Shown one piece after another: positions 18,601 to 61,769 of a stretch of DNA of 64,000 nucleotides. Made by a program: the position numbers and the translations under genes. The notes beneath the pieces were generated by a model. That model did not search any database. It was not told the origin of the DNA and saw nothing but the letters and a program-made list of their open reading frames with translations. The DNA lies in the NCBI RefSeq assembly GCF_964204645.1, contig NC_134026.1, forward strand, positions 22,462,650 through 22,526,649, given 5' to 3'. Every line of letters begins with the position of its first letter. Within the stretch, counting starts at the first letter, position 1. The stretch is from Tubulanus polymorphus (Eukaryota; Nemertea; Palaeonemertea; Tubulaniformes; Tubulanidae).

Positions 18601-18825
18601 GATCGTAACAATTTCTAGATTTATATGACCAAAGAAAAAAATGAGTCTCCATAAAAAAAATTTTAATATTCTACGCGAGATTTAGATTTTCATACGTAAA
18701 AAATCAAACCGAGGACGTGCCGTAATTTTAAAATCATCAATGATGCGTAACGATGCAGAAGTAACGGTGAAATTACGGGCATCCCCATCGCGGACCGAGC
18801 CCGGGCCTCGCACAAAGAAAGCAAG
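15640..18825. other. 5' flank of NR2E1, no gene seen
   Basis: Upstream sequence of the NR2E1 coding start; the promoter, 5' UTR and any enhancers would lie here. No second gene is supported on either strand. The open frames at about 16008-16304 and 17983-18246 have no recognisable motif and compositions expected of AT-rich non-coding DNA. Confidence 0.45.
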
Positions 18826-19335
18826 CCTCTCCCTCTCCCTCTCCCTCTCCCTCTCCCTCTCCCTCTCCCTCTCCCTCTCCCTCTCCCTCTCCCTCTCCCT
18901 CTCCCTCTCCCTCTCCCTCTCCCTCTCCCTCTCCCTCTCCCTCTCCCTCTCCCTCTCCCTCTCCCTCTCCCTCTCCCTCTCCCTCTCCCTCTCCCTCTCC
19001 CTCTCCCTCTCCCTCTCCCTCTCCCTCTCCCTCTCCCTCTCCCTCTCCCTCTCCCTCTCCCTCTCCCTCTCCCTCTCCCTCTCCCTCTCCCTCTCCCTCT
19101 CCCTCTCCCTCTCCCTCTCCCTCTCCCTCTCCCTCTCCCTCTCCCTCTCCCTCTCCCTCTCCCTCTCCCTCTCCCTCTCCCTCTCCCTCTCCCTCTCCCT
19201 CTCCCTCTCCCTCTCCCTCTCCCTCTCCCTCTCCCTCTCCCTCTCCCTCTCCCTCTCCCTCTCCCTCTCCCTCTCCCTCTCCCTCTCCCTCTCCCTCTCC
19301 CTCTCCCTCTCCCTCTCCCTCTCCCTCTCCCTCTC
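18826..19335. repeat. (CCCTCT)n perfect hexanucleotide array, about 85 copies
   Basis: 510 bp of uninterrupted period-6 repeat, pyrimidine-only on the plus strand and GGGAGA on the minus strand. The minus strand gives endless G3-N3-G3-N3 runs, the canonical G-quadruplex pattern. The mirror-symmetric purine/pyrimidine tract can also form triplex H-DNA. The Ser-Leu and Glu-Gly frames across it (18740-19561 plus, 18773-19357 minus) are artefacts of the repeat. It lies about 3.2 kb 5' of the NR2E1 start. Confidence 0.98.
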
Positions 19336-22300
19336 TAAAGTTCAAGTACTTTATCACCCTGGACAGCTTAGTTATAGGAATCTTTCCAACGAAATTACCC
19401 AGTCAAATCACGCGTTCCACATTTTCAACGCAATTGAGAACTGGTATTACATATTTAACGATTTTCGAAGACCTTTCGCTAAATTGTCAAGTGTCCACGG
19501 CATGGGAAAGACTAACAGACCCTGTAAAATCGATCAAGTGGTCTATATACATACCGTATAATTTTTGCGGCCTTCTTAAGTCACAAGAGTTCTCGGGTGC
19601 CTTGCTGAATATTACAAACTTTTTTTAATCTAGTTATTATGTCATATATAAACCCTATACCACTTACTAACACCTACATAGTTTCACTGTTTCTGAAAAA
19701 TGGGACAAATTTCCATTTCGTGATTTAAATTTTAATTTGATCGCCAATTACTGAATATATGTGTTGTGTGTAAAGCTTTATGGGATACCTTAAGATCATA
19801 GAGATTGCAGTTTTTAAATACTGACCTACCTGAGTAAGCGCAAGTAAAGCCACAATGAACACGATGCCATTTTACACGTATCTGTTTTTCGTGCAATATC
19901 AAAAGTTTTCGGGATAAAAGCGAACAGTTTTAAATATTTTTTTTTCAAGTAGATCCAAAAAGGAGGGACACCCACACGCCCTTCTATTATGCTTCCAACA
20001 TGAATGAAAAATTACGTTTCATTAGATTATCAAGAAAAATGTAATTGTCACACTAGAGTAGAATATGAAGTAGGGCATAATCATAACTGTTTGTCAAGGA
20101 TAAATGTAAGGGTGAGGCTCATGGGCTTGAAGTCTACACAATGTGAATAACGTTTTGATGTAGTGTTTTTGATTCTCTGACGCTGAAAGTGGTCTTCGTC
20201 ACCTGAACACACAGGATAAATAGCCATGGTTGAAAATGCTGGCTTGGTGGATTGGCGATAGTCAATTGTTTAAAGTGCTTATACCAAAATAAACATTTTA
20301 ATTTCATACCACCGCATTTCGGCCCTCCACGCCGGCCACTTCTTATGATCCTTGACACATTTTTTAGTCATCATAAAATGATTTTCACACACCACTGTTT
20401 GTATGATGTTCACTTTGTCGCTGTCTGTTTGTAGACCGAACGACAGGCCTGACAATTCAAAAGTGACTGGAATTTAGGAAAATTTCAAGAGTAAATTTCA
20501 ACAGGCAGATGCCGAGCCCGGTTTCTCGTTCTCTTTTTTGTAAAAACCTACCAGAACGAATACTTGACATTGGCCGCATTTTGAGGGTTTTATTAAGATG
20601 GGGATTCATCCAGAATTTGGGTCAAGATTTGATCTATATGGTCGTTCAGCTCCTGGCGTTGATTAAATCTTAGTTTTTGCGTATACAAACGAGAACGGGT
20701 AAACGATAATTATAGAAAAACAGCCCGTTTTGTAACGTTGATAAACACCGTAACGCCAACAGTTGTTGTATGGTATTGTTGGCCTTCGGGTATCGTCAAT
20801 AGTATCTAACGAGTGTGATGCAAGGGATGATAATAGGTCGGACCCAGTGGCGGAATATTATGTCGTGAATGTATCCGCAATCACTCGTAATCCCTTAAAC
20901 AGTCAATTTGTCATTTGATGATCGGATGAAATCATTGATGGCACGTGAGCATCAGGGGTTCTATTGAATTGATTGCGCAGCCAGGTGAAAGGAGCCAGAT
21001 CGCCAATGGTCAAGTAACCGCGTGGACAAGTGGATTCTTTTTTCTCTGCGTGTCCCCAAAGATAGATATTTTGGCAAGCAACGTTGATTATTCAATTATT
21101 GCGGAATTCGCGTAACAAGTAGCGATATCGACAAGAGCTCGCGTGCGGTTTCTTTTTGTTCGGCCAAAGATAGACGAATCGGTAGGCAACGTCTGTCACG
21201 CCATACGCTTATAATTAAATACAAACAGGCGAAAACTCATTCTAAATATCGCATAATATGATATGCGTAAAATAGCCAGTATTGCGCAACCGATTTGAAC
21301 ATTTTAACGCGGGTATGGAATTTCGTTGAATTTAGTCACACAACTTCAGATGTGAAGCTAAATGTCACGAGTTTGGCGATAAATGTTGACTTAAACCGCG
21401 CGTTACCAGGGAGAAATTTTGTCCGCATAAAGACGAATTTAGATTAGCACCAACTATCTTACCTATACAGCCCCTTGATAGTTCGAGGTATGGCGCGTTA
21501 CGTACCAAATTGTGTATATTTTATTTTTTATCAAACGCACAATGGAATGGTTTGTGGTTTTAACCCATGGATTTATCAAGAGGATTAGAAGGAAGCTTCA
21601 TCAAATCTATTTTGTCCATTTTCTGAAAATATATTTTGGGATATCCGTTGGAATATTGATCTGGTGGGTTAAGATGAGATAAGTGGGCTAGGAAAGGTTC
21701 GTTCACCTACGTAGTAATAACTGATTGGGTGATTCCGGAAACCAAATCATTTCAATCTTCTATACCCGCATCAAATAATAAAACAAATTATCTGAAAACG
21801 TTGTATTAAATTTACACATTGAATTGATCTCGGCAGGGATTTCGTATCTCAATCGTCCGAATAATTGCCTACACTATAGTTCTATTCATTGGAACATATT
21901 CAATCTATTCATTTACCATTCTGCTTCTCATCTGGGAAGATTTGAATTGTTTCGATTTGAAACTTAACGGCTTTCACCTATGATACTTATACTAGCAATC
22001 AGAGCAAGCTGGACTCATCAAGAATATATCTGTATAATGATCATATACTATCCTTAATTTGGCAAATTGGCGTTTCCCCCAAAGGTGAGACCTAGCAACT
22101 TGCATTTTCTCATACTAACAGCCGATTCCATACTGAGCGATACAAATGAGGAATACACATGAATTATGAAAATGACAATCCGATAAACATGATCCCTGAA
22201 GGCAAATCATTACGGATTTTTGCTGTCTTATTCATTTTGTGGCTGACCCAAGCGTGATTTCACTGACCGCCAGTCGCAGTTTTTAATCCTCACCACAAGA

Positions 22301-42448: not shown

Positions 42449-45400
42449 TTATTTTTCCTTCCTAGTGTCTTTCTTTTCTTCTTTGCTGGATGAATCTTTT
42501 TTGTCATCCTTCTTCTCATCAGCTGGTTCCTTTTCATCATGATCTTGATAACTGCAAAAGTGGCACAATAACACATTAATTACATCATCATTACACATAT
42601 CTTGCTATGTATCTTTGCTAAAGCCATGCATTTTCTTTTGCTCTTATACAGCTAACAGTTACCTAAACATGAGTTTAAGATCTCCTTTCACAGCAGCGAC
42701 TAAAATGGGCAGGCCAGTACAGGCAGGTACCAAGTACAATAACGCAGGCTGAAATTCAAGGAATATTGAATAAGACTTTCCCTTTTTATCCAAAACATTT
42801 CTCGGAAAACTGCCAATTTCACTTACCTGAGCATGTTTGAAAACATGCATCACGAGGATCGTAAATAGCAGACCCAGAATATAAGCGATGTATCCTGCGT
42901 AGAAATACGTACGACTGTTTCTCTTCAAACTGAAATTTCAATTTGATTATCATAAATAATGCTCACGATCGACCGTACGTCAAAAACCCCACAAAACTAA
43001 ATTCTGTCAACAGATTGATGGACGACAGACGAAAATTGAATGAACATAACAGACCTAATCATGTGTATTGTTCACATGTATCATAATGTCCATCAAATGA
43101 CATGATTTATCAATTCAAAAAATTATGACTAGCTGTGACGTCATGTGAGTAAGGTCTGTAGCCAGCTAGGGCCTCGGCCCAAGTGGGCTATAAAAAGCAA
43201 TCAAACCTACCTAACATCAAACCTAAGAAGTAACGCGATAAATATACCAGGAATAACAATATCTCCTAAGCCCAACATAGCGAAGTTGCTAGCGCCGAGT
43301 CCCTTTTCGAGAATATCTTGCGGGAATACCACTGTAATACAACACAAAATTATATAGCACTTCTAGTGTGAGAGCGCTGTAAGAGAAAGATTTTTTGCAT
43401 TCCAGGCAACTTACATTTGATTGGGGCCTCGAAGGACTTAGCAACAGTAACCATGACATTAGTTCCAAATACCTGCAAAAAAATATACATGCTTAATATA
43501 CATATGTTTAAGTAATCATTTCAGGAATGATTCCACTAATCAAATGACAATGTACATTAAAATATCAGTCACTTGTAATGGATAAAGCAGATCAGACAGA
43601 ATTAAATAATAAGCATAACTATGTTAAGGAGAAAGGGACAAAATATCTGCCGTTAAAAATATGATTCAAATGGCAGAAATTGATATGGGTTTGAAAACTT
43701 ACCCAAAATATATCATAAACAAACAGCCCTCCTAACAAAATGCAACCAGTGCTGACAGTATTGAGTTGTAGGAACTCTACGCCATTGATCGAGAATGCCA
43801 AACCGAACAAATTATTAGCAATCCAATGCTGAAATCAAAATTATACTCAGTGAAAGTGAAGAATGTTCATTTTATTAAATGAAAGAGGACAGTACCTTTT
43901 TAAACAAATACCAAACGCCAACGATTGAGCATAATGCTATACACACTATGTCTTGTCGGTCGAATTCGTAGTTCATGAGTTCTGAAATGAGATTGGTTTG
44001 TTTAGATTAAGAAACATCCGGTGGCTTATTTACAGAACCCAATTCCACAGTTGTGAGTTGTTACTGATAAGACTCAAGAGTCGAGTCAAAACTAGACTAT
44101 CACCATTCATCAAGTAAAAATTTCAATAGAACCAAATATCCCAACCCACAACTGTAGAATATTGGAACATGACGCACATGCACGTTAGGTTTTTTTTTCG
44201 ATTTCAATAAATGATCAATATACCTTCTTTGTCTTTTCCTTTCCCTTGAGTGAATAACAGATGATAAGGAGCATTTGGGAATGATGCCGGCATAAGTGCA
44301 TGCACAATAGGGCTACAAAATATAAACATCAGATTATACTTCATAAACTATGAGGACGAGCTCTGGGCTTAGTTAAAGTAGCGGTGAAGGATTTCAAGCA
44401 AAGGACCAGGAGGGGGCAGGTCCAGAGCTGCTTAAAACCGGTAGAAAATTGAAATAGTGATAATTAAGATTGCATTGTAACCATGGTATTTATGTGGTTG
44501 TTAACTTCAAGCAACTGACCTTAGGCTAAGCAATGTTCATTCTTCAGATTTTGGACCTGTCAAGCTCAGGGGGGCCTTGAAAGTTACGGTAACTTACCTC
44601 AGAATATGCGCCAGAGCCAGCACTCCAAGGAAAAAGAAGTAACCAGTGAGGAGATAATTGATGTATTCCTTACCAAATATCTAGCAATGGAAAAAAAACG
44701 CTATAAGAAGTATCAAACTGATATAGACCTAATACAGCCTAATGAAGGATTCCATTCAGGTTAAGATTTCTCTTTGGAAAAATATGAAAATGATAATACC
44801 TGGAAGATTAAGTACAATCCGAATAGGAATGCGCTAGCAATGATCGGAAACATTGCCGCATCTTTAGTGGTCATGGTTTCTGTGTCGGCAGTTGTACCAT
44901 TTTCCTATGTTAGAACAGAAAATAAATCAATGAGTGGCAATGCAAGTGTTGTGAAGAAAGCATTGAAGTCACTAAGATAATAGCTGTTCCCAAAATGGGA
45001 ACTTCGGGTCAGATATCAGTGTGAATTCTATTGAGGAGGAGAGTGGTGGTGTAAAGCATCTGCTTTTCATTAAAGTTGCAAATCACATGCACGGCCATGC
45101 ATCAAACATATGAAACATATGGCATACTCAAAACTGTATTGCCAAGCAAGTCACAATGCATTTGATTTGGCAAAAACATGATATCAATTTTGATTACAAC
45201 ACGATAACAATTATATCTGGATTCATTCAATCTTATCAATCATTAATAACAATTATAAAATGATGAAAATTCACTGTTGCAAGGCTAGATATAGTAAAAA
45301 TCTGAACAATTTAAACACAGACTAACCTTCTGTTCCTTATGGTGTCTTACAGAGCGGAATGCCCCGAAAAATATCGGCAGTAGAGCCATAACGATCAGAC

Positions 45401-45527
45401 TGCCGTATGCTACGATCATTCCTTCGGGTGTGGCTGGAATTTTGGCAGTGCCATTGCCCGCAGCGGTGGCATTTTCCGTATCATTCATCAGTGGAGCGAT
45501 AGGCACTGTCTCGTTCACCTCAGCCAT
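42449..45527 (-). CDS. HM13: Signal peptide peptidase (HM13/SPP), intramembrane aspartyl protease
   Basis: ER intramembrane protease that cleaves remnant signal peptides and some tail-anchored proteins. Eleven exons join to 386 residues: 45527-45327, 44904-44800, 44680-44598, 44312-44224, 43981-43896, 43828-43703, 43472-43415, 43331-43211, 42929-42827, 42748-42663, 42551-42449; human HM13 is 377. All three family signatures are present: YD at Y226-D227 (GGLFVYDIFWV), GLGD with D273 (FAMLGLGDIVIPG), and PAL at 325-327 (QPALLYLVPAC). The N terminus carries NxT/S sequons (NET, NAT, NGT) and then PEGMIVAYGSLIVMALLPIF, the first membrane helix. The C terminus is charged and ends RKEK, a weak form of the KKxx ER-retrieval signal seen as KKEK in human. 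The start context is good (aacATGG). It is divergently paired with the TIR-HEAT gene, whose ATG is 745 bp away. Confidence 0.97.
43140..43200. repeat. Fragment of dispersed gcccacttgggc-type repeat in an HM13 intron
   Basis: The intron stretch contains ctagggcctcggcccaagtgggctataaaaag, matching in character the terminal words of the repeat at 50560-51340 (cccacttggga...agcgggctattg). A short remnant of the same dispersed family is the likely explanation. Confidence 0.35.
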
Positions 45528-46271
45528 GTTGTTTAATGATGTGCCGGTTCCGTCAGTGACGTGTGTGACGTGTCTTTCCTAATCGAAATATCTCTTGGCC
45601 TATCATCAGGTTTTGTATTTATCATATGCAGCGGAGTAAAAAGATAGATATTTCTCACTGCTTCATGTTTGCTGAAAATAGAATAAATCAACGTCATTCA
45701 CACTCCATTCACATCTGAAATGCGATTAACGGAGCGCTCCCCTTTTCGGCAGCTTTATCCTAAAATATTGGAGTAGTCCTTTGACAAATCAAAAACTAGG
45801 AAGTAATACATATCTGCTAGTACCTGAGTAGGCTACTGCAGTAGTATCTGTCAAAAAATTTAGAAATTCCTAAAAAATCGACTTAATTTTCGCTAGGTAA
45901 TGATTTTACGATACTGTTTATTGATAGATCTATATAATCATTTTCATTTTAACTGAGTCGGTTTATCAGATATTTATTTGGAATTGTCGATTCAAAATTC
46001 CAAAAAGTGACTATCGTCAATCTCCATCCATCTAAATCAATCTCTACTCTGTCTCTCAGTAGTGTCAGTGAGAAGACATGTCATTGTCATAGGCCTACAC
46101 TACAGACATTTTGGGAAAAAGTTTATGGTGGCTAAATGGGTGGACAGCTTACTATAGCAATAACAAAAATGTGGCCTTTTCTGTTTTACTAGTCTAAAGA
46201 CTACTTGACCTGACTTATTTTAAGTCCTTTTTAATCTGTTCTTGGTTTCTTCTATTTTGCAGAAAATAAAA
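45528..46271. promoter_or_regulatory. Divergent promoter region of HM13 and TIR-HEAT gene
   Basis: The two ATGs face away from each other across 744 bp. A 3' splice site (ttctattttgcag) ends at 46262, only 9 bp before the TIR-HEAT ATG. That gene therefore has at least one upstream non-coding exon inside this interval, shortening the true intergenic space. I found no TATA box I would trust. A shared bidirectional promoter is an inference from geometry. Confidence 0.55.
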
Positions 46272-49200
46272 ATGGGTGGCCACCACTCCAGTTCAGCGGA
46301 TATATCAGACAGTCCGAAATCTGAGAAAAAACATAAGCACAGTACTAATGATTCCCCTGATAATGATGACTCGTCAACTGTTAAACAAGTGATGATCAGT
46401 TATAGCAGAAAAGATACTGAAGCGCTCAATATTCTCAGAAGTAATATTCAAATTTCATCATCACGTTGAAGATTATTGTCATTACTTTCGTATATAAAAC
46501 TAAATAAGGCTTTTAAATCTTCTGATTTTTGGTTAAGTGATATTTTAGTATATCAAAAAAACTTTTTTCTTACGGATTATAATCTTTCTTTCTAGATGCT
46601 CTTCAAAAATCTGGAATATCAACTTGGAGTGATGTAAATCAACTGAAAGCTGGCGATGACTTTTTATCTCGCATTGGTCAAGCTGTTATAGACTGTGAAG
46701 TACGCATACTCCCAGCTATTGATTATATCAGACCCCAAAAATTGCATTTTTCTCTTCCTATCGAATCTTAAGTACATAATGTAATATGAATAAAAGATTA
46801 ATGCTATAATGATAAAAAGACCTACACTCCAAATTAATTCAGTTATGATTTTGTATTACTCTCATCAGAAATTAACTAGGCCTACCAGTAAACTATTCCT
46901 GAAGAATTATGTCATTTCATTCCAGGTTTTCGTTTTCCTTGCGAGTCCATCGTCAATACAGTCGAAATTCTGTCAAGATGAACTCGCTTTGGCTTACATA
47001 TCAAAGAAAGCAATATTTCCGGTGGCGCTGTACCCAGCTGAAGAACTGTTTGATGTAATGGATACAGGAATGTAGGTTTAATAACTAGTATTTGAACTGA
47101 GTATGAGTTTAACCGGTAATGGGGTGGGTCTCAAATATCAGAAACCTTTTTACAGAACGGACCGTTTACTTTTGCGAGTTTTTGATTCTCGATCTCTGAT
47201 GCGTTTATTTTGTTATTCGCAGGCGATTGCAGCTTGCACGATTCGAGTGGAATTTCTTCCTCGACCCGTCGGAATACAAAGAGAAATTTGATCAGCTTTT
47301 GTTGTTGATTCAACAGGCTCTTGGAGACACTAAACAGGATGCAAATAATGGTATGGTAATATCTTATTCCAGATTCTGTGAAAAACACTTTTTCTTCATC
47401 ACATTGTGCTAACTTGGTCTTGAATATGAAATTCTGCATTAGTGGTCTTCTTGTTTGATATTTTACTGTTCCAATTATATACATTTATTGTTGTATGTGT
47501 GTGTAACACTTCTGCGTTGAATTCTTCATTTAAATGCAAAAACAAATCAGTTGATTTCGTAACTGATTCCATGGAAGAACTGGGACAAAGTGAGTATGTT
47601 TAGGTTCCCTGGTAGATCTGCTTTTGAGAAATTTTGGTTCGGATTGTTGTTGATTTAATTCTGGTGTATATTGATTTCAATTAGGACTATTAAGTTTCCC
47701 TTATGCATGGTCTTGTTATGCCAGATTGCATGACATGGGCTTGAATTTTCGAATATGATTGGTTTTAATTTAATTCCTCGGATCAGTTTAAGGACGAAAT
47801 TGAGGAAAATCTGAGCGATGATTGTGCTACGAGACCTAGCGTCTAAGCCTAAGTCATTTATTTGAATCAGAAATATGGTAGACTCCGCCCAATTCGGATC
47901 CGATCAACTTGGATGTTTGTTGAAATATTTATTGTGACACTATATATGAAATACATAACATCCAACTCGGATTTCACACAAAGCGGACACATTTTTACAG
48001 TCCTAAAACATCCGACTTGAGCGAAGTCTACTGTACTGTATTTCATCCGAGAATATGAATGCATGGAATTAATCTTCGGTGTTTATTGATAGTGATAGGA
48101 CCTGTGGACATTGCCGAAAAACGCAAGAGTGAGTAAACGATTAGATCAGTAGGACTTCATGTTATCAAACGCACCCACTAAATCTGGATCAGGGATATTG
48201 ATTTAATCCAGAAATCATTGATATCCCTTTTGTGTCTTACTGTATGTTGGTATGATACAATCTTTCGGTCTTTACCATATACGAAAGTATAACTGTGCAC
48301 CTTCCTCCCAAAAACTAACCATATTAATGTTCGTAGCGGGATTAAGTCCATTTTAGGTGAAGCCTACTGCATTTAGAAAATAAACTAATATGAAACTAAC
48401 CCTTTGCACCCCATACAATGAGTCCATGGTTTTTTGTTTCAATATTCTCTTAAAACCTATGTATTTATTTTGACCCGTTTTATATATGCAAATGCATCAT
48501 GGCAATGTAAGGGCTTTGCTTGCTTTGCATTTTACATTTGTGGCAGCGGTTTGAATTGATTCATAAAACTTATGGCATACTGGTACAACAATTGCTATAA
48601 TCTTTTATTTCTAGAATTGTTATTTTTCTCGGTTATGGTACATATACTGGATTCTGATCATTCTTTTTGAATTTAATAATGACTCGGGTGAAGTTATTAT
48701 ATGCTGAATCCTTGAACCATTAACATTCCAGTGTTGCAGCGTCAAGGGTCACGACCAGCACTCCGAGCAGATCCAATTCGAATGTCCTCATTACCTGGTG
48801 GTGACGTAAGTGCTGAAAACTCATTCCTGGCGACATTCTGGCAAAGAAATTTTGATGATGCTGAGCAAGTGCCTTGGTTTGAGTAAGTGATTGGCTTTCA
48901 GTTAACTCGGTTAGCTAATATACTTATTGCCCTGATTCTGTAATAAATCTTTGAATACTTTTGTAGATTTGTGAAGATTTTTTCGAATGAATACAAAGAT
49001 CAGATAGAGCACATCTTCCGGGCTGAAAAAGATAAAGTCTGGTTGGTTTCAATTCTGCACAGAGAGTTGAACGTGACCAGCAATACACTGAAAAAAAATA
49101 ATTTCGACAGTGAGTTAGATATATTTCGAATGTAACATTCCACTGTATTGAGCCCTTGCCCTTGACGACCTTAGTGATTATATATTCCTATGCACCTGAA

Positions 49201-50146
49201 TAACTAGGCTTTTGCGCCATTGTAGTCTCAGAAAGCATCCTGTGTAATTATTTGTGCAGGATTTTGCTCGACGGAAACTGGTGAATTTCGTCCATTTTGG
49301 TTGAAGGTTCAAGATCAAGCTGTCGAAAGTTACACTATCAGAGAGGTGTTCAATATGGAGTCCAGTGTGCGAGTGGATGCAATTGAGAACTTGGGTAAGT
49401 ATGTCCACACTAACAAACCTTTATCTGTTGAAAGTTTTTGAAACAATATAGATTATTGAATTTATAGTACTGACAGTGGCTGGATTGAATTATATTCATT
49501 TTCTTTATTCAGGCAAATATAAGAGTCCTGCTGTTATTGAAGCTCTAATCGATCTGCTCTCCGATGAGGATAACAACGTGCGGGCTGTAGCCGCTATATC
49601 TCTAGCTCGTACCGGCTGCCGTACATTACGAGTCCTCGAAGAACTGATGAAAACGCTCGACAGCAAAGATCGTCTGGTTCGCGAGAGTGGATGTTTGTCT
49701 CTGGGTCATTTACAGGTCGAGGATGCTGTGCCAAAACTCGTTCAACTCTGGTTAGTGATAAGCGATAGATCTATTCACATAATATAGGGAGAAACTAGCT
49801 TGAAATAGGCTCTAGGCATACTTCTTTACAAAATAACCCTATTCTGTAAGGAATTAGATGTTTACTAAATGTTAAAGTAGCAGTTTGGACAATACCTATA
49901 TACCGTAGTTAGATTATTTGAAATGAGTTTTAATACAATCATTTTTCAGATTTTGATTATTTCGATGGGCTTTTTAAATTTCATGAATTATACATTTTAT
50001 TTGATTTCAGGAGAAACGATTTCATTTCAAGTGTCCGTGAGGCGGCGTCAATTGCACTTGAACAAATTGGAGGTGAACAAGCGAATGAAGCCATTAGAAT
50101 GACTAAACTGCTCAGCGAAGAAATCCACATGCTAACAAAATCTTAG
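46272..50146 (+). CDS. TIR-HEAT repeat protein, predicted N-myristoylated
   Basis: Eleven exons join in frame to 472 residues: 46272-46440, 46596-46699, 46926-47071, 47223-47350, 47551-47589, 48099-48128, 48732-48882, 48967-49109, 49260-49394, 49513-49750, 50011-50146. Residues 1-37 are a polar Ser/Asp/Lys leader starting MGGHHSSS (myristoylation pattern Gly2, Ser6). A TIR domain covers about 38-175: VMISYSRKD (box 1), LQKSGISTWSDVNQLKAGDD, VFVFLASPSS, then SKFCQDELALAY with E110 at the place of the catalytic Glu of TIR NADases. About 205-335 is an unrecognised helical region (ATFWQRNF, QVPWFEFVKIFSNEY). HEAT repeats fill about 335-465 (IEALIDLLSDEDNNVRAVAA, LMKTLDSKDRLVRESGCLSL). This order is the reverse of SARM1 (ARM-SAM-TIR) and lacks SAM domains. 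The role is unproven: an NAD-cleaving enzyme or a signalling adaptor, probably at membranes. A candidate ATTAAA lies at 50295. The exons at 47551 (39 nt) and 48099 (30 nt, weak acceptor) are the least certain. Confidence 0.9.
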
Positions 50147-50560: not shown

Positions 50561-51340
50561 CCCACTTGGGACTTTAGCCCCAGCGGGCTATTGCGTTCAC
50601 TTTTCGGCCATCCGTTTGTTCGTCCGTCCGTCATTCAGTCTACAGAACCCATTCGTAGGTGGGAAAAAGTTTTTCCACATTATATTGATACCTAAGCATA
50701 TTTTGTGACGACAATGAATTAGAAAGTTGAAGCTTATAACGTGTTCTATGATTGTGGTGAGTTTCAAGTTCATTGGTTTTTGTATATGGCCACCATGGGG
50801 CGTTGAATAATACAATATCTTAGTATTTTTATATAATATTTGTAACAATACATATTTTGTTACCACAATCAATTGCAAAGTTGTAGCTCATAACATTGTC
50901 TATGATTGTGGTGAGTTTTAAGCAAATTAGTTATTCTATATCGTCACCAGGGGGCTTGAATAGTAGAATAACCTAGTATTTCCTTATTATTTTGGTACCT
51001 AGGCATATTTTGTAACCATGATCAATTGCAAAATTGTAGTTCATGACATTTTCTATGATTGTGGGTGAGTTACAAGGTTATTGGGTTTTTTTAATATGGT
51101 CACCAGGGGGCGTTGAATAGTAGAATAACTTAGTATTTCCATATTAAATTGGTAACGAGGCATATTTTGTTATCACAATCAATTACAAAATCGTAGCTGC
51201 TGACATGTTCTATGATTGTGGAGTTTCAAGGTCATTGGTTTTTGTATATGGTCACCAGGGGGCGTTGAATATTGAAATTGTTAGATCGTTGAGCATTTGA
51301 AACCACTTCCCAAGTGGGCATGGTGTCCCTGGACCCCTAG
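50560..51340. repeat. Dispersed repeat holding four tandem about 154-bp units with CTCF-like motifs
   Basis: Left border cccacttgggactttagccc then agcgggctattgcg, with cgtccgtccgtc; right border caagtgggcatggtgtccct then ggacccc. Between them four diverged tandem units each run from atattttgt through tctatgattgtgg to a GC-rich word: ccaccatggggcg (50790), tcaccagggggct (50944), tcaccagggggcg (51100) and tcaccagggggcg (51252). Spacings are 154, 156 and 152 bp. The GC-rich word matches the CTCF core consensus (CCACCAGGGGGCGC) at most positions. The short complementary borders (cccacttggg and caagtgggc) suggest a non-autonomous mobile element whose core amplified in tandem. Confidence 0.75.
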
Positions 51341-58220: not shown

Positions 58221-59110
58221 TCACATCAGGGCCGGACAGTTGTACAATCTTGCAGGTGCAAATTGGACGACCGTTGATTTGTACTTTCTTAATTGAATGG
58301 CCATAACATAAGGCGGGCAGCCGGTGTAAGTGTAAACACATTCGGCGACTTCATCGGCGAAACTATAACAAAAATACATAACAGAACATGTATTTAATCG
58401 GTATATTACACATCATTAAGATATCATGAAGTATCGTGATCTAAATATATCTACGTTAAGATAATTTCTATAGGGATTGCATATATTTAGTCATTTTCAA
58501 AATATCTAAGTATCGAGTGTATATAATATTCTTTGCACAAACAAGCTAGATAAAATCAGTATGACATGCGCTTATTTGTACGAAACTTACCCACAAAGGA
58601 TGGTCATGTCAGTGACGTCCATGTATTTTGGAATTTCGTTAAAATACCGAGAGCACGACCCAAACATCATTAGGTTAACGAAAAGAAATGCATTATTTAA
58701 ATATCCTTGGCAAACTGACATAGGTGGATAAACTTTCTCAACTGTTTTGGTCGTAGTAGGTTTGTTTCGCGTGGAAGTTGGTGAAATTTTTGTTTGTTCT
58801 GTAGTTTCTTTAGGAGTAACCACTGTGGACGAAGATATTGCTTTCGACGGTGAAATTGTTGTATCACGAGATGAAGGATGCATTTTCCGAGTACTCGAAT
58901 TATCTAAGTATCTAGTAATCGTTGAAATAAATGTATGGACTAATGGAGTTATCGAAGATCTTTTCATTTTTTCATGCGACGTTGTTGATTTCAGTTTATG
59001 TGAAAAGGTTGTGGGTTCAAATGATGATGTCATCTGTTTAACCGACATTAAAGGTACCGTAAACACAGACGCCGTTTGCTCTTTTGAAGGCCGAAGTGTG
59101 AAAGGTCTCG

Positions 59111-59168
<58 letters not shown>

Positions 59169-61769
59169 GGGAGACAAGGTTGACTTAGGTATACCGGTCG
59201 TTTTTCCACCAGTAGCTGTTTTCTCAGTTGTTGTAGCAATTTTTGTTGTTTGGAATGTTAATGATGGCTTTCTAGGTGGTATGGTAGCTGTGGAGGTTTT
59301 TCGATCCGAACCAGTTACCGAAAGAGTTGTATCAATATGTGTAACTTCTTTTACACTATTTGATATTGACGATTGTCCTAAACCATATGAAGTAGGCAAT
59401 GGTGAAAAGATAGTTTGCGTGTTGCTGGTGGATGTTGGCATATCTGAAGTACGCAGTGTATAAGAGGAGGTTGTAATCGTTTTAGTGACAGGTGATGGCG
59501 AAGAAGCGAATGCTGTAAGCATTTTGCTGCTGGAAGATGTCGGTCTATATGAAGTAGGCAATAGAGAAGATGTTTTCGGTCTACTTGTAGGTTTAGGCCT
59601 CTTGGATGTAGGTAATGGTAAAAAGGTGGTTTGTGTTTTACTGATAGGTGTTGGTATATCTGAAGTAGGCAATGACGGAAAGGTTGTTTGTTTGATCCTA
59701 CTGGTAAGTGTTGGTTGGTACGAAGATGGTGGCTTAGGTGTACCTGTACGTGATGTGTGCATCACCTTTGATGTAAACCTTACTGTAGATGATTTAGGCA
59801 CGCTTATCTTTATTGCTGATCTTGTGTTTCGCATTGTAGTCGTTTCATTCTGTGAAAAAGATGAACGCTTAGGAATGGTTGCGAATGACGTCTGTCGAGG
59901 TCTAAGTGAGCTGTAAGATATCCCAGTAAAGGTTTTGACTGTTGGGATTTTGGGACTGGATGTTTTGAATATCATTGAAGATTGCTGTGGAACCTTTGAG
60001 GTTAAAGAAGGACTTGTCAGTTTTGTTGGCTGTGAAGTTCTTTGTGGTGACAATTCTGTAATAACTGCCGAACGCCAAGAAAAACTTGATGATTCTTTTG
60101 TAGATATTTGACTTGGACTCAGTGAAAACTTCTCAGAGGCAGTTGACGAAACTTCTATTAATGCGGAGGTGGTTTGTGATTTCGGCTTCACGGATGAGGG
60201 TTGACTCTGGAACATTGTAGTGTGCATCGATGGTGATGCAGATGAACTGGGAGTATGTTTAGGCGAATTTGCAGTGCTGGGTAGTGGTGTGACAGTCGAT
60301 GTTGGAAAAGAGGATATTGCTTGATCAGAAGTTGATGTAGAGGAAAGCGTTTTAGTTGCCATATCAGATTTTGTCGTTAATATACCGGTAGTTCGCTCAG
60401 TTGACACTGGACGTATTGTTGAAGTGGTCGTCACTTGGCGTGATATCGGAAATGGTGTCGAAACAGAGGATGTCGAGACAATTTTAGGCGACTGTGTTTG
60501 AATAGTCGATCCCATCTGCGTTGAGGTCGTAGTATATGTTTTTGCACCAATATATGACTTATTTGTTGAAGGATTACTTTCTGTTGTGCTGCTCATCTGC
60601 GACGACCTTTCTACATTAATCACATCTATAACGAAGCCATATAAAACACTTAGAACCTTAGATTACGCGCTCAGACGTATGTCATTTGAACTTTCTATTA
60701 CCTATAATTTGAATATTAGTGATACTGTATCCCATGACGTCGTTTGAATTGGCCAATACTGACATGATGGCATCCGTATCTGATGGTCGTATATTTCTCA
60801 TAGCGCTTATCATAAATTCCACTTTAACACTGCCTTCGCTGAAAATGAAACATAAATGATTCACAAGCAATGCAGATGGAGCACTTGTGGCTGTCGTCGT
60901 ATTGATGCTTTTGATCGAAATGTTGCTACCTGAAGTTTACAATGCGTGACGAATGGTAAAAAGACGAAACGTTTTTCGATGCTCGGTAGATTCTGTCCAG
61001 CTGAAAATGATGCACGTGATTCCATCATTAATGTGTTCCTTGGTGAACACGATATGGAATTCGAAATCTAGGAATAAGCTTCGAAATGTATTTTGTCTCG
61101 TTGATAATTGACAAACAAATACAAAATGAATGTAGAACGTCAACCTTCTTACCCTAGTTTCTAGTGATTCGGCTAGATTTCGGAATTCCTCACTTTCATC
61201 GTTTTCAAGCGCTCGCGTAAATTTCATCTTTGAAATCGTAAATGCCAATTTGACGTACGCAAAACTGGGAGCGATGGAAGTTTGACCTGGAATAAAACAG
61301 TGTTTTGGTTCTTAGTAGACATATCAAGAGATGAATGGCACATTAATTCATTAACTATCGGCACATTTTGTCTTACGTAGAACAGGTGTTCTGGAAACAT
61401 TGGAAGAATTGCGACCACTAGGTTTCCACAGTGCTGTGGGTGATAATAACCAGAAAGTATATTCTATTATATAAACGTAAGAAAATTCACACTTATAAAA
61501 GATCGCAGTTTTTGTACCTAAAACCATAAATACTGTCATCAGTGCAATGAAAGTGATCATCGCTAACAAAGAAATAACCGCACATCGTCGCCTTCTAAGA
61601 CACGGGATTTCTTCTTGTTTTTCAACTAAATCAACTAACAATAATGAAAGACATAAGGCATCAAACAATTGACTTCTCTCATTTCATTCTTGTTATATTG
61701 TTAATAGTTAACTCATTACCGTCAGGGGAAGATCGTTCGTCGTCGTCTGATCGCCGAAAACTCGATAAT
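58221..61769 (-). CDS. SEA-domain mucin-like type II membrane protein (5' end open)
   Basis: Exons 61769-61720, 61625-61518, 61433-61377, 61286-61153, 61000-60930, 60838-60702, 60625-58591 and 58362-58221 join in frame to about 910 residues plus an unresolved N-terminal exon. A cytosolic N-terminal part (DDDERSSPDVEKQEEIPC) is followed by LRRRR and one membrane helix (CAVISLLAMITFIALMTVFM), giving type II topology. A SEA domain follows (FTRALENDESEEFRNLAESL, then RIVNFSEGSVKVEFMIS). GSVKV matches the GSVVV-type site where SEA domains cleave themselves. The 2-kb exon then encodes about 600 residues of Ser/Thr/Pro-rich mucin stalk, including a poly-Thr tract. The last about 90 residues form a module with six cysteines (VCQGY, GSC, LCG, ECV, GCPP, YNCP). 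It is probably a heavily O-glycosylated surface protein. The upstream frame at 61863-62057 may hold the start but does not join in phase. Confidence 0.8.
59108..59169 (-). repeat. (AAC)n trinucleotide repeat coding for poly-Thr
   Basis: About twenty uninterrupted GTT units on the plus strand, read as ACA (Thr) in the mucin stalk frame. Pure triplets without synonymous variation mean recent slippage. The length is probably polymorphic between individuals. In other frames it gives poly-Gln or poly-Val, which are not real products. Confidence 0.95.

Follow-up and report, generated by a model that had tools for sequence, protein, structure and literature searches.

In SARM1 the domains follow in the order ARM-SAM-SAM-TIR, and the gate of the fly protein is built of eight ARM repeats, the central groove of which binds nicotinamide mononucleotide (NMN) and related nucleotides (PMC8758145). 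Aplysia is credited with 10 (text) or 11 (table) intracellular ARM-TIR genes besides three SARMs (PMC9334734), an oyster ARM-TIR has been named (PMC4346834), and choanoflagellates pair TIR with Arm (PMC6040629). For invertebrates, ecTIR-DC families have been described (PMC6321704, PMC6836662, PMC5549309), family 6 of which combines ARM-like repeats, a Death domain and two TIRs (PMC6836662), and a 2026 preprint reports eukaryote-only TIR clades, some of them common in molluscs and cnidarians, as uncharacterised (PMC13142454). The present analysis concerns a window of 64,000 nucleotides from the nemertean Tubulanus polymorphus (the whole stretch analysed, NC_134026.1, positions 22,462,650 to 22,526,649), which at 46272-50146 encodes a protein with a TIR domain followed by C-terminal HEAT repeats, here named THP1, together with its paralogue THP2, found elsewhere on the same chromosome.

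With moderate confidence, THP1 and THP2 are read here as the two members of a family of TIR-HEAT scaffolds or adaptors that act inside the cell, tethered to a membrane, and not as SARM1-type sensors of nicotinamide adenine dinucleotide (NAD). Both proteins have the order TIR-middle-HEAT and an MGxxxS start, and neither has a membrane helix or a SAM match. They appear, from their sequences, to belong with the known invertebrate intracellular ARM/HEAT-TIR proteins. The likeness to ARM-TIR and ecTIR-DC proteins consists in an intracellular TIR joined to an alpha-solenoid, in a function that is not known and in the invertebrate genome, whereas the TIR in first place, the HEAT_2/PBS-type repeats in last place, the unassigned middle region and the MGxxxS start set the pair apart. 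Neither a TIR-then-HEAT protein nor the phrase TIR-HEAT was found in the literature searched, a negative that does not show that none has been published. The invertebrate ecTIR-DC families were reportedly defined by Gerdol et al. in 2017, and the TIR-then-HEAT architecture may already be catalogued among them. The pair represents a compact test case for signalling by assembly versus NAD chemistry in uncharacterised eukaryotic TIRs.

Gene structure and the paralogue THP2

The TIR-HEAT gene model is confirmed. THP1 comprises 11 exons on the + strand, joined in phase, with GT...AG at 10/10 introns; the coding sequence of 1425 nt ends with the stop codon at 50146, and GC content is 0.429 in the exons vs 0.327 in the introns. 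An earlier note, made from the letters of this DNA alone, had proposed 11 in-phase exons, which the intron borders and the GC contrast bear out, and a product of 472 residues, which is corrected here to 474 amino acids.

A search of the same genome (268 Mb, 77 contigs) with the THP1 protein revealed THP2, a full paralogue on the minus strand (C2:2038451-2035995), which is modelled as eight exons with GT/AG introns encoding 486 amino acids. Five introns have a common phase in the two genes: one inside the TIR (phase 1), those that precede beta-C (0) and follow beta-D (2), the one ahead of the HEAT repeats (1) and the one at W|RND (2). Compared with THP1, THP2 has an extra intron towards the N-terminus and another within the HEAT repeats; it lacks the five introns that THP1 carries from the TIR end to the HEAT repeats; a single uninterrupted THP2 exon runs from the TIR end through the middle region into the first HEAT helices. 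Since THP2 repeats both the domain order and the five intron phases, the exon chain of THP1 is not a product of chance, and the earlier claim that TIR and HEAT reside in one protein holds for the paralogue as well.

The two proteins are identical at 149/437 aligned residues (34%), a figure that, like those for the separate parts, is a contrast of two sequences and not a rate test. By part, identity amounts to 8/32 in the N-terminus, 42/121 in the TIR, 7/39 in the linker and 30/107 in the middle region, while the HEAT repeats, at 62/138 (30/45 for residues 403-447), are the best-kept large region, as would be expected for a partner-binding surface. Within the TIR, the best-kept block is the alpha-C/beta-D core with E110, where 17/21 residues are identical and the segment around the Glu reads SKFCQDELALAYISKKAIFPV in THP1 and SKVCQDELSLAYISNKQIFPV in THP2; the BB loop retains 2/13.

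Among the matches listed in the genome search with THP2 there was no third TIR-HEAT gene; THP1 was recovered, as was a locus on another contig (C10:5597992-5601633) with HEAT repeats related to those of THP1 (38-52% identity) and a similar W|RND border. On its own strand, tblastn of the surroundings of this locus (C10:5588000-5615300) gave no TIR match and no convincing match to the middle region (best E 0.20), and the locus is therefore left out of the family. Prokaryotic relatives were not confirmed in genome contigs (17 pattern matches for THP1, 67 for the pair), nor viral relatives in viral contigs (0 for THP1, 117 for the pair), these scans being made with short exact peptides, by which distant relatives would be missed.

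Domain composition and comparison with SARM1

The order TIR first and HEAT last, proposed in the earlier note with the TIR at 38-175, is recovered by Pfam. TIR_2 matches residues 40-166 of THP1 (E 1.7e-18, 67.7 bits, cut-off 28) and reaches 57.4 bits in THP2; the other model, TIR (PF01582, cut-off 21.3), scores below its cut-off in THP1 (19.5) and above it in THP2 (21.8). HEAT-type matches of THP1 span about 339-449, the best stretch being HEAT_2 at 339-408 (E 9.5e-19, 67.9 bits vs cut-off 27.7); HEAT_PBS (38.8 bits vs cut-off 20.9), HEAT and HEAT_EZ also exceed their cut-offs. In THP2, HEAT_2 reaches 62.1 bits and HEAT_PBS, at 9.8, stays below cut-off. Most of the PDB matches to the C-terminal part of THP1, which fall within about 325-462, are designed alphaRep HEAT proteins. 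Both proteins thus combine a TIR with an ARM-type fold, with no transmembrane helix and no leucine-rich repeat match (Pfam, hydropathy), the peak 19-residue hydropathy being 1.45 in THP1 and 1.23 in THP2.

Between these domains lies a middle region (about 208-336 in THP1) in which no Pfam family exceeds its cut-off; the nearest for THP1 are DUF4550 (E 0.033) and PARG_cat_N (E 0.06), and THP2 has zero matches up to E 10. Against PDB, the region gave chance-level matches only (best E 0.52 for THP1, 2.7 for the pair). A suspected resemblance to the Cbl EF-hand domain was dropped: over a patch of ~24 residues, scores as high arose in 7/2000 shuffles for THP1 but in 886/2000 for THP2, and HHalign gave a probability of 1.7.

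When searched against PDB, the TIR of THP1 alone finds SARM1 and Cat1, a CRISPR-associated TIR protein, tied as best matches (24.2 bits each); SARM1 is the top match for full-length THP1 and Cat1 for the profile of the pair. Models of bacterial families (NCBIfam, PADLOC) also match the TIR of THP1, namely SAVED-TIR (E 7.1e-13), Thoeris ThsB and Thoeris ThcB4 (E 8e-9, 34.8 bits vs cut-off 220). The likeness to these bacterial defence proteins and to Cat1 is confined to the TIR part, with no full-length match.

In a tree of 13 TIRs, which includes the THP pair, SARM1, three TIRs with an ISYQW motif, Cat1 and five TLR/IL1R-like TIRs, the first four of these groups are split from the TLR/IL1R-like TIRs with support of 99/96. 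THP1 and THP2 form a sister pair (84/89), the branching order relative to SARM1 not being settled in this tree. The ISYQW TIRs are a second non-receptor kind in this genome, several with QMGGGD; they occur at C11:7171860-7173216 and elsewhere (L040, L042, L043, L045), two of them adjacent on C11. Those of C11 and C2 were weakly matched in the THP1 search (E 9.8e-5 and 0.046), and the one on C11 also by the THP2 query (E 0.015).

E110 lies in SKFCQDELALAY, where in the PDB match it falls opposite the Glu of Cat1; the earlier placement of this residue at the position of the catalytic Glu is verified, and the Glu of alpha-C is present in THP2 as well as in THP1. In SARM1, W71 beside E75 binds the ligand, and the BB motif E(R/K)LEAG has three positions (1, 2 and 6) that matter for catalysis (PMC7075850, whose numbering is used). 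The Trp four residues before the Glu is replaced by F106 in THP1 and by V in THP2; the BB motif reads NQLKAG in THP1, where only residue 6 of the three is kept and the E-R/K pair has become N-Q, and THP2 has neither motif nor pair. Among these SARM1 marks, the Glu alone is common to THP1 and THP2, and an altered pocket is possible. The genome also encodes a SARM1-type TIR with all of the marks (ERLTAG, and WVHK followed, in the exon junction assumed here, by E as the opening residue of the next exon). It is 62% identical to PDB SARM1 over 66 residues, the TIR part alone being compared, and begins on the same chromosome at C2:22697143 (L039), 184 kb downstream of THP1, a closeness that may be chance.

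The Glu by itself does not mark an NADase, because it is found in 16/24 of the other genomic TIR hits that reach alpha-C and in >70% of all TIRs (PMC7075850). Its frequency, which exceeds 90% in the TLR1/2/6/10 subgroup, does not necessarily track reported activity, and the Glu is often present in TIRs for which no activity is known (PMC7075850). The genomic sample consisted of 30 of the 37 TIR_2 hits, 24 of which reach alpha-C; at the Glu position V occurs in 7/24 and D in 1/24, and W stands four places before in 12, together with E in 5, counts that are not independent, the rows with V being TLR-like frames of nearly the same sequence. Such frames, in which Val replaces the Glu conserved in TIRs, were read on C10, C7 and C8 (about 766-785 amino acids). 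Enzymatic activity of THP1 and THP2 is possible, the one conserved Glu being what points to it.

A proposed membrane-tethered adaptor and its alternatives

N-myristoylation follows a consensus start of MGxxxS/T. The predicted products begin with MGGHHSSS (THP1) and MGCAASGN (THP2), so that G2 and S6 are present in both gene models, and Cys3 of THP2 is presumably a further possible acylation site. In THP2, an in-frame TAA lies three codons before the ATG and no AG separates the two, which fixes the start. Both proteins are probably membrane-attached. We infer anchoring, TIR assembly and partner recruitment: the N-terminal glycine would be myristoylated and the protein held at the membrane, on arrival of a signal the TIR would form assemblies, either of its own kind or including the TIRs of receptors or adaptors, and the conserved HEAT module and middle region would recruit partners. 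Such a scaffold or adaptor role would resemble that of the myristoylated TIR adaptor TRAM (TICAM2), which combines a TIR with an N-terminal myristoylation signal, as predicted for the pair, and with a basic region, as in THP1; the analogy concerns the manner of working, and no homology is claimed. TRAM is not known to carry HEAT repeats, and the THP TIRs are off the TLR/IL1R-like side of the tree. TRAM pairs its N-terminal myristoylation signal with a polybasic region; when its Gly2 is changed to Ala, the protein is spread diffusely in yeast and filaments do not form (PMC8615643).

Signal relay appears likelier than NAD cleavage because several SARM1 enzyme residues are missing, and the occurrence of a separate SARM1-type TIR in the genome likewise counts for an adaptor. 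Of the two options left by the earlier note, an immune adaptor is the likelier one, as opposed to a distinct branch of TIR enzymes.

Several points weigh against an adaptor. The basic stretch is limited to THP1 (K+R in residues 1-25: four, all Lys, in THP1 and one, Lys, in THP2), the N-termini do not align past M and G, and myristoylation is predicted from a sequence pattern. The partners of the HEAT and middle regions are putative. That receptor TIRs would be bound cannot be taken for granted, because in the tree the TIR falls with SARM1, the ISYQW TIRs and Cat1, away from the TLR/IL1R-like side, and it matches models of bacterial defence TIRs. Finally, the Glu-bearing alpha-C/beta-D block is the best kept of the TIR, and this may point to an active site.

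The last two observations lead to the main rival, an NAD-using enzyme of the bacterial-defence kind: a TIR NADase or ADP-ribose cyclase nearer to bacterial defence TIRs than to SARM1, restrained by the HEAT and middle regions. We consider this a serious possibility, though clearly less probable than an adaptor. SAVED-TIR and Thoeris systems use NAD-derived chemistry, and the matches of THP1 to the SAVED-TIR (E 7.1e-13) and ThcB4/ThsB models, the tie of Cat1 and SARM1 at 24.2 bits as best PDB matches of the TIR alone, the position on their side of the tree (99/96) and the place of E110 in the 17/21-identical block all speak for it. It is opposed by the F or V at Glu-4 in place of Trp, the BB loop with 2/13 identical residues and no SARM1 E-R/K pair, and the commonness of the Glu in TIRs without known activity (PMC7075850; 16/24 in this genome). 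A bolder form of the idea, which we regard as speculative, would make the pair a second animal TIR-enzyme class beside SARM1, membrane-anchored and bacterial-defence-like, with an altered pocket (F/V for Trp), that cleaves or cyclises NAD and is switched by HEAT repeats whose partner would be the upstream sensor.

A structural TIR decoy or negative regulator, competing with the TIRs of TLRs or MyD88, would agree with the missing pocket residues and with the many TLR-like TIR frames of the genome; it is rather unlikely, as the THP TIRs are off the TLR/IL1R-like side of the tree and a decoy would have no need of conserved HEAT and middle regions. The proposal of the earlier note, a reversed SARM1 in which HEAT repeats bind NAD/NMN and gate a TIR NADase, is very improbable. 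The parts list is indeed the same in the opposite order (a TIR with a Glu at the catalytic place and an alpha-solenoid), and the reversal and the lack of SAM domains stand: TIR precedes HEAT in both proteins, and Pfam gave no SAM match in THP1 up to E 1 or in THP2 up to E 10. However, the HEAT part of THP1, with about 120-138 residues matching within about 325-462, is far smaller than eight ARM repeats with a nucleotide groove (PMC8758145), and the Arm match is below cut-off (15.7 vs 20.6 bits). The pocket Trp is F or V, the BB-loop residues are mostly lost, the Glu is widespread, and a SARM1-type TIR exists elsewhere in the genome, so that a SARM1-like NADase gated by HEAT is not supported. 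That THP1 joins exons of two genes, an idea for which the derivation of the model from genomic DNA alone and the introns of 503 and 603 nt flanking mini-exon 6, between the TIR and middle-region exons, could be cited, is hardly credible and largely refuted by THP2, whose identical domain order and bridging exon answer, as far as DNA can, the earlier note's own refuting test of TIR and HEAT exons in different transcripts.

Exons of THP1 and neighbouring features

The exons of THP1 are listed in the table. Skipping either of the linker mini-exons 5 and 6 preserves the frame, so splice variants are possible. A further coding exon upstream of the predicted start codon is also possible, because an acceptor-like TTTTGCAG stands immediately 5' of it.

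Exons of THP1 in the window, with the parts of the predicted protein that they encode
Exon	Position	Strand	Content
1	46272..46440	+	MGGHHSSS N-terminus (MGxxxS pattern), basic stretch K16, K19, K20, K22, TIR beta-A VMISYSRKD
2	46596..46699	+	TIR alpha-A to BB loop (SDVNQLKAGDDF), alpha-B
3	46926..47071	+	TIR beta-C, alpha-C with F106 and E110 (SKFCQDELALAY), beta-D
4	47223..47350	+	Remainder of TIR (TIR_2 match ends at residue 166)
5 (mini-exon)	47551..47589	+	Linker, 39 nt, frame-neutral, predicted
6 (mini-exon)	48093..48128	+	Linker, 36 nt, frame-neutral, predicted
7	48732..48882	+	Middle region, beginning (FWQRNFDDAEQVPWFEF)
8	48967..49109	+	Middle region
9	49260..49394	+	Middle region end and first HEAT helices
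10	49513..49750	+	HEAT repeats
11	50011..50146	+	Final HEAT repeat, stop codon TAG

Head-to-head with THP1, on the minus strand, lie exons of a signal peptide peptidase gene (window 42662-43855 and 45285-45578). The former segment (C2:22505311-22506504) accounts for 4/9 Peptidase_A22B hits of the genome; the exon at 45.3-45.6 kb, in which a Pfam scan gave nothing at E 0.01, we take to be the first exon of the gene. Just downstream of THP1 is a tandem repeat of 154 bp in 3.9 copies (window 50668-51271). The minus strand further contains an open frame of 691 amino acids (window 58587-60662), Ser/Thr-rich and mucin-like, with no Pfam match at E 0.01, and a long CT/GA simple repeat at about 18700-19340 is open in several frames.

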